NCBI RefSeq assembly: GCF_002865645.1
Contig: NW_020194610.1
Location: forward strand, 1-64,000
DNA length: 64,000 bases
Reading direction: 5' to 3'
Source: Hyaloscypha bicolor E
Lineage: Eukaryota > Ascomycota > Leotiomycetes > Helotiales > Hyaloscyphaceae
A program made the position numbers and the translations under genes. The notes under the pieces were generated by a model. The model was not told the DNA's origin, did no database searches, and saw nothing but the letters and a program-made list of their open reading frames with translations. Positions within the stretch are counted from its first letter, which is position 1, and every line of letters begins with the position of its first letter. Of the stretch, positions 49,604 to 51,339 are shown in pieces.

Positions 49604-51339
49604 TTATCGAGCGTACTTCCTTGTCCACTCACGCGCCGTGTCTTCGTAACGTTGATGATCCATTTTATAAATGTGAGCAATTTCTGGCACGAGAGGGTTG
49701 TCCGGATTGGGGTTATCTAAGAACCAGCATATTGACGGTAGAACTAATCGTGTCAGCAATTGTCTTATATGTAAGAACGCTTCGGCAAGATATCCACCTT
49801 TTGCAATTGTCAATGCAGGACTCCACTCGTCTCTTAAGATGTTTAAAGCGATTGCTCCGTTGCAGTTGATGTTGGGAAGATACACTCTCGTCATGAACGC
49901 GACTTTGGGAGGCCTGAATGGATAGTCGGAAGAAAACTCGATGCTCAGAAGGAATACCCCTCCGGCGTAGGGGGTGTGTGACTGGACAACTGGTTAGAGT
50001 GTGAGCTTAGATAGGGGAGCCAAGCTCACAGGGCCCATAATTGTTCCTTTCCAGTAATACTGTTACTGGATTAGATTTCTGCAGTGGTCTTTACTGAGCG
50101 TAAACTTACTATATTGTCATCAATCAGACCAGCCGAACAGGAACTGGGAGGGTCCCTCTCTAGATATTCCAATTCCCACTTTATCCTCTTTGCGGCAGGG
50201 CTAACATGTTTCCTATCAATCAGAGGTTCCGATGCCAAGAGGCCATGGCGATTTCGTATTTCCAAGTCTAAAGTTGGCTGGAGCGCATATGCCTTGTGTT
50301 CCGCGAGTTCGGGAGGTCCAGTCAAAGGCTCTGATGTAAGTCGACGGAACCTAACCAATTCCGGCTCATGCAGAGGTAATTTAATCACAGAGATAATAGA
50401 TATATCTGTGAGACTCACCCCAGAGAGGATGGACCAACCTCGAGATCTAGTGCTCGATATTGAAGATACAGCGTCGATATTGCCAACCTTTACTCTGCTA
50501 TACACTCTTGTAGAAGCTAGTACCAGATTGAAAGAATGCTGTTGGATGGTGGATGCTTCTAGTAAGTACTCTCGGGGCTTACGATTCCCATCTCTCTCTA
50601 TTTGTAGCTGCTTTTGGAAAGCAGGCTCACTGCCAGCCACGGGAACCAGAATCTGTGGTCCTGTATCTAGATCTCTTGTTGATCTGGGAATTTCAGAGTT
50701 ATCGGTATCCAAACCGGCCTTATTTTCATCCCCAATTGAATCTGCCGGTAGCTGGATGCTCTCTAGACGCTTTGAGAGATCCACATCCTGTTTTACCTGT
50801 TGCTCAATATGCAGCTGTAGGTCATAAGCGGCTTCTCGCGCTTGAATATCCGAGTCACTAGGTAGAGCTGAAATTAGATTCGTACGACTAACTGAATGAT
50901 AGCCCATGTGACTCTCTACTTACCACTGAATAATCTGTAATAGGAGTGTCAACGATGTCTTATGCCTCTGTAATTGATTTACCAAGCGCATGACCCCATC
51001 TTGTATTCGTGCCCACGTAAAACAGACCAAGTAAGAAGTTTTCTTCCCATTCGAGATCGGGCTGACCAGCGACTCAAGCTCAGAGAATACAAGCACCGTC
51101 TGTGTTAAAACCACCACGACATCTTCAAGCTGGATCAATGCAGCTCGTCCGCCCAACAACCTGGTTGCTTTGTCGAGGAATTTCTGTAGGGCTAAAAAGA
51201 TGATCCTGATGTGGTCTACCTCTGTCAGCACCGCTGTGATCGACGCGGGCGCGTCTATGATCTGCTCTAGAAGGTTTGAGACCTGCGTCGCTGCTGCGAT
51301 AATGCCTGTAATCGACGAAGTGATGTTGAGTGGATCCAT
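49604..51339 (-). CDS. HeLo-like/STAND N-terminal domain fused to a catalytically dead Ubc4/5-type E2
   Basis: Predicted 505 aa from five exons: 51339-50924, 50857-50110, 50059-50030, 49981-49798 and 49743-49604. Introns are 66, 50, 48 and 54 nt, each GT-AG and frame-preserving. Residues 1-140 ([27 protein letters not shown] ... [10 protein letters not shown]) form the helical N-terminal domain of fungal STAND/HeLo-like proteins. Residues about 245-305 carry the linker [42 protein letters not shown] common in that group. Residues about 360-505 are a whole E2 fold: [85 protein letters not shown] and EWTRKYA. In the active site, HPN is LPN and the catalytic Cys (SICLDIL in Ubc4/5) is Ala443 (AIALNIL); Cys438 sits five residues before it. 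Ubiquitin transfer by the normal route is therefore not expected. A UEV-like binding or decoy role is inferred. It is divergent from the NLR gene. Confidence 0.85.

Follow-up and report, generated by a model that had tools for sequence, protein, structure and literature searches.

Analysis of a 64,000-nucleotide (nt) stretch of the Hyaloscypha bicolor E genome (contig NW_020194610.1, positions 1 to 64,000; hereafter the window) revealed a minus-strand gene, at 49604..51339, that joins an N-terminal helical module (N-module) to a Ubc4-type ubiquitin-conjugating enzyme (E2) domain without the catalytic Cys. The gene model, made by eye, joined five exons into an open frame of 505 amino acids (aa) from ATG to stop. 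Exon 1 (50924..51339) encoded residues 1-138, for which structure prediction gave a four-helix bundle with a pLDDT of 84.6; exon 2 (50110..50857) encoded the remaining N-module, a linker, and the start of the E2; exon 3 (50030..50059) continued the E2; exon 4 (49798..49981) held its active-site region; and exon 5 (49604..49743) encoded its C-terminal part. All introns were GT-AG, of 66, 50, 48, and 54 nt. The first was ended at ACCTAG because the upstream TTTCAG breaks the frame, and the fourth donor (GTGGAT) was weak. An earlier reading of the DNA from sequence alone (the sequence-only reading) had proposed these five exons with four frame-preserving introns, and the model held, with an open frame and a paralogue on contig C54 that demonstrated the same plan with introns at matching places. 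At the level of domain matches, the pseudo-E2 fusion is confirmed as an observation far beyond chance.

The C terminus had been described as a complete Ubc4-type E2 in which Ala443 replaces the catalytic Cys and HPN reads LPN, and these points were borne out. In the Pfam profile search UQ_con covered residues 363-499 (49625..50187, introns included; E 7.3e-43), and the best solved structure by sequence was yeast Ubc4 (1qcq, E 2.3e-61). Exon translation and alignment placed the GCT codon of Ala443 (49847..49849) at the catalytic Cys, residue 85 in UBC4 numbering, and Leu433 (49877..49879) at His75 of the HPN motif, the Asn of which was kept. The window E2 differed from UBC4 by K8W, H75L, C85A, D87N, L104P, S108W, and D117N; it kept K4, R5, S22, P61, F62, N77, S94, P95, and A96, which we take to be sites on the face that binds ubiquitin ligases (E3) and on the ubiquitin back face. 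The Ala443 protein should not hold ubiquitin as a thioester at the catalytic place.

The search of the organism's own genome (82 Mb, 76 contigs) yielded one further gene of the same build, the C54 copy, which was open over 468 aa and carried Ser at the catalytic position with HPN kept. Across the own-genome loci L001-L038, Cys was present in nine of 11 distinct E2 motifs, and the remaining two were the two fusions. The catalytic Cys was kept in the genome's regular UBC4 gene (contig C1); of the introns of that gene, those behind GDDL, behind MGP, and between K and VLL matched window introns 2-4, and the one between GR and DPP was without counterpart in the window gene. Because three intron positions are common to the window E2 and the genome's own UBC4, the E2 part probably arose from a copy of genomic DNA rather than through RNA.

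The search for relatives gave at least 164 proteins at E<=0.001; 120 were listed, and 105 of the 120 had a readable active-site motif. Among the matches listed were four fused relatives: P0004 from Curvularia, P0005 from Lasiosphaeria, P0006 from Leptodontidium, and P0103 from a metagenome. The four-helix part is missing from the P0006 and P0103 models, which were counted as fused by a second conserved motif of the N-module. At the catalytic position P0004 and P0103 carried Ser, alignment gave Arg or Gly for P0005, and P0006 retained Cys (ICLDIL). The Cys was absent in five of the six readable fused E2s (window, C54, P0004, P0005, and P0103) and present in 99 of 101 other E2s (Fisher p 1.2e-6, uncorrected for kinship). 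Two of the latter had no Cys. One, P0074, is listed as human UBE2D2-OTUB1; the other, P0068 of Rhizophagus clarus, contains within a 727-aa protein a Ubc4-type E2 with catalytic Ser (GSISLNVL) and no N-module, a separate loss of the Cys. Outside the E2 counts were N-module proteins with no readable active-site motif (P0008, P0009, P0010, P0011, P0017, P0025, P0033, and P0110), seven other E2 proteins in which the motif was unreadable, and the models P0121, P0124, and P0154, which are without the active-site stretch; many of the motif-less models end at or just past the site where UBC4 has its intron behind GDDL. Early ends occur in gene models from Squamulea, Cercophora, Thermoascus, and Fusarium.

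In the E2 tree, the window, C54, P0004, and P0103 proteins grouped together (support 87/79), and a single clade of all six fused E2s was neither rejected by the approximately unbiased test (p 0.53) nor proven. Compared across relatives, the altered catalytic site stood in part: the loss of Cys was common to relatives, but P0006 kept it and the usual replacement was Ser, not Ala. Because Ser was the commoner replacement state in the fused E2s, Cys to Ser to Ala would be the simplest route to the window codon, simpler than a direct change.

Cys438 (49862..49864) had been put forward as an alternative nucleophile. At the aligned position C54 and P0004 had Ile, whereas Ser occupied it in P0103, P0006, and the genome's own UBC4, and this candidate was rejected because the residue is not conserved. 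Hidden catalysis, in which Cys438 in the window protein or Ser in its relatives would accept ubiquitin, could draw on the place of Cys438 five residues ahead of the active site and on the capacity of Ser E2s to form oxyesters; however, Ala443 is incapable of this chemistry and D87 and D117 are also changed, and we regard the idea as very improbable.

The retained residues bear on the main rival, a dominant-negative regulator, in which the N-module would localise or oligomerise the protein and the pseudo-E2 would occupy E3 ligases and damp UBC4 pathways without cell death. E2s with Ala or Ser in place of the Cys serve as laboratory dominant negatives, and the native ones described here are natural counterparts of such trap mutants. 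The pattern in the window E2, with P61, F62, S94, P95, A96, and S22 kept and C85, D87, L104, S108, and D117 changed, speaks for this explanation. However, the E2s of C54 (S94T) and P0004 (S94Y, P95E, A96S) carry additional changes on the presumed E3 face, and damping of UBC4 does not by itself account for the likeness of the bundle to MLKL or coiled-coil (CC) domains. We consider it unlikely, though a serious contender; the other rivals are less likely. One of these is a module like the ubiquitin E2 variants (UEVs), with the pseudo-E2 reading ubiquitin or supporting another E2 and the N-module as scaffold. An E2 fold minus Cys and a back-face S22 kept in the window, C54, and P0103 proteins are consistent with it, but the sequence is that of a Ubc4-type E2, and P0004, P0005, and P0006 do not keep S22. 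By sequence, the nearest relatives of the window E2 were Ubc4-type E2s, and its intron positions matched those of the own UBC4, which, with a tree that contained no UEV, argues against descent from Mms2 or Tsg101. We give this module a small probability.

Both the E2 part and the N-module are under purifying selection. Between the window and C54 copies, nonsynonymous (dN) and synonymous (dS) divergence by YN00 was 0.27 and 1.33 for the E2 (0.25 and 1.83 by NG86) and 0.31 and 1.29 for the N-module (0.28 and 1.99 by NG86). The resulting dN/dS of 0.13-0.24 over both parts is rough because dS is high, but it is still far below 1. The loss of the Cys had been read as selected rather than decayed, and this view gained from ratios not near 1 and from a Cys loss common to relatives. 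Decay of an unneeded, drifting E2 tail would agree with the end branches of the fused E2s (0.22-1.14, against a median of 0.048), with the early end of P0005, and with several other gene models that stop within the E2. Against it stand the low dN/dS; the intact reading frame, splice sites, and C-terminal end of both own-genome copies; and the Ser or Ala common to the window, C54, P0004, and P0103 proteins, grouped at 87/79; we judge decay improbable.

The N-module consisted of the bundle followed by a helix and a linker bearing the second conserved motif (STRVYSR..., about residues 248-315 by alignment; 50329..50532 via the exon table). Public databases held at least 124 N-module proteins at E<=0.001, of which 120 were listed and 75 were chosen for a Pfam scan. 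The N terminus had been called STAND/HeLo-like; a helical bundle of HeLo-like type was predicted, but NACHT and NB-ARC were absent from the window protein, for which Pfam at E<=1 showed only UQ_con and PigL_N. The match to PigL_N (PF17111) reached 17.5 bits, under the curated cut-off of 27.2, which weakens the HeLo-like label and weighs against the membrane-active role proposed below. PF17111 was matched at E<=0.001 by 24 of the 75 related proteins, with 27.3 bits in P0123 and 27.2 bits in P0130; the accessible part of PMC9815663 names this family Helo_like_N. Residues 4-24 of the window protein formed an uncharged stretch, and a search of PDB sequences with the N-module profile gave only two matches, both at chance level. 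The predicted bundle may have membrane and cell-death activity.

The N-module was found at no fewer than seven full loci (at least 7) in the own genome, with tails of E2 (two), Ras-type GTPase (two), CDC24 calponin plus RhoGEF (one), protein kinase (one), and one other (C49); looser PF17111 matches numbered 48. Hyaloscypha variabilis P0132 was the nearest match (84%) to the N-modules on C46 and C51. At C51:1589418-1590041 the end fragment of an N-module lies near a Ras-like stretch interrupted by stop codons; this is probably the remnant of a decayed family member. In the 75 scanned proteins the tails were Ras (12), CDC24 (8), LIM (6), UQ_con (5), and RhoGAP (3), and G-alpha, SH3, PBD, MIT, WW, and RhoGEF were seen once each. 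In a tree of 57 N-modules, which leaves out P0006 as too short and in which P0008, P0010, P0011, P0033, P0121, and P0124 were labelled E2 from the E2 start alone, the E2-bearing rows fell in one clade of 15 (100/100), together with some unlabelled models, and tail types changed at least 10 times. Judged by these domain matches, the N-module is a fungal carrier of several signalling domains.

Hallmark residues were also lost in tails other than the E2. Seventeen GTPase-like tails were read (the 12 Pfam Ras matches, C46, C51, and, by eye, P0135, P0173, and P0175), five of which are near-identical Fusarium orthologues. G1 (GxxxxGK[ST]) was intact in four of 16 readable tails, Gln61 in eight of 13, and G4 ([NT]KxD) in one of 14; 16 of the 17 had lost at least one hallmark, and the remaining one, P0132, was cut off behind G1. 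Ten ordinary own-genome GTPase genes demonstrated G1 in 8, DTAGQE in 9, and NKxD in 9, and the missing ones may span introns. The two own-genome N-module/Ras-type genes, L042 (C46:1942048-1944133) and L045 (C51:1316676-1318823), had altered G3/G4 (YEEY and NNSD; HNCD). At what is presumably the Arg finger position of RhoGAP, P0153 kept the Arg, whereas P0162 and P0165 had lost it. The G-alpha tail of P0130 carried DVGGT instead of DVGGQ and His instead of Arg, and the kinase-like gene L043 (C1:4266549-4267468), of MLKL-like layout, read HRN for HRD and DAE for DFG. These losses in GTPase, RhoGAP, G-alpha, and kinase tails indicate that, as far as motifs can tell, loss of catalytic residues is common in the N-module family, with exceptions.

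The explanation that we prefer, tentatively and at somewhat short of even chances, is an MLKL-like plan of a membrane-active bundle and a pseudo-E2 latch and bait that mimics Ubc4. The HeLo-like four-helix bundle predicted at the N terminus would be the membrane-active part, and the pseudo-E2 derived from UBC4 would serve as both latch and bait. The pseudo-E2 would be bound or altered by a factor, partner or foreign, that targets UBC4 or its E3 ligases, and this engagement would free the bundle for assembly at membranes. The protein may thereby act as an immune effector, decoy, or sensor, as the sequence-only reading had supposed. The occurrence of this N-module with dead GTPases, RhoGAPs, a G-alpha, and a kinase suggests that disabled copies may serve, as a general plan, to watch different signalling hubs. 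More doubtful is a NOD-less (without a nucleotide-binding oligomerization domain), one-protein surveillance family of filamentous ascomycetes, in which an MLKL-like module would repeatedly have come to carry disabled Ubc4, Ras, Cdc42, RhoGAP, G-alpha, or kinase, or the polarity adaptors Cdc24, LIM, and SH3, each as hub bait. If true, this would reveal which cellular hubs are guarded in fungi and offer a tractable setting in which to ask how a pseudoenzyme restrains a membrane-active bundle.

A divergent gene at 52144-54954 (+), approximately 800 bases distant from where the pseudo-E2 gene starts, encodes a 936-aa protein like the NOD-like receptors (NLRs), with NPHP3_N/NACHT-type and DUF7791 domains. 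It had no tblastn match at E<=1e-3 in ten stretches (six family loci with some flanking kilobases, three flanks of C54, and the 10 kb past the window); therefore, no conserved NLR pairing was seen near the loci fetched, and such a pairing was rejected. The open frames at 61800-63551 (+) and 11511-12059 (-) bear the motifs LSHCWGG... and YALSYVWGED..., which by eye presumably resemble HET domains. AT-rich stretches at 1-12000 and 24001-32000 (GC 9-37%) lie beside stretches of about 50%, with a GC minimum of 0.093 and a GC skew of -0.52 at 30001-32000, and are perhaps repeats affected by repeat-induced point mutation. Inverted repeat arms of 94 nt at 55705-55798 and 57623-57716 (99% complementary, 1824 nt apart) are perhaps transposon ends.

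The UEVs Mms2 and Tsg101 have an E2 fold without the catalytic Cys, as does the window protein, but the E2 here is Ubc4-type and joined to a helical module. In plant NLR integrated decoys, copies of signalling proteins are joined to an immune-type module, whereas the window protein has no NOD/NACHT and its decoy role is a proposal. The accessible parts of PMC12881547 and PMC9815663 describe executioners of HeLo-like type (PF17111) that act under fungal NLRs, HELLP among them, with which the window protein shares a weak PF17111 match and a four-helix prediction, and the E2 takes the C-terminal place. The Big Ras GTPases, including TBRG-1 of Trichoderma virens, are 3-4 times as large as usual and have a poor G4 but conserved G1-G3, according to the part of PMC8146680 available; the N-module GTPases are likewise large fungal GTPases with a poor G4, and the two may be kin. 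The mostly open-access literature searched, consulted in part and including PMC9815663, PMC10197012, PMC8146680, and PMC12881547, yielded neither a HeLo-like/E2 fusion nor this set of degraded signalling tails. Fungal HELL-domain kinase and pseudokinase proteins are known, and in the accessible text of PMC12881547 the MLKL/HELL proteins likewise have an N-terminal helical bundle with a degraded enzyme domain behind it; the HELL-pseudokinase plan is thus already known, and the pseudo-E2 version was not found in that literature. In the window protein an E2, and in its relatives a GTPase, RhoGAP, or G-alpha, stands in the place of the pseudokinase, and any executioner activity here is putative. 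If true, fungi extend the MLKL plan of executioner and pseudoenzyme to several kinds of dead signalling domain.
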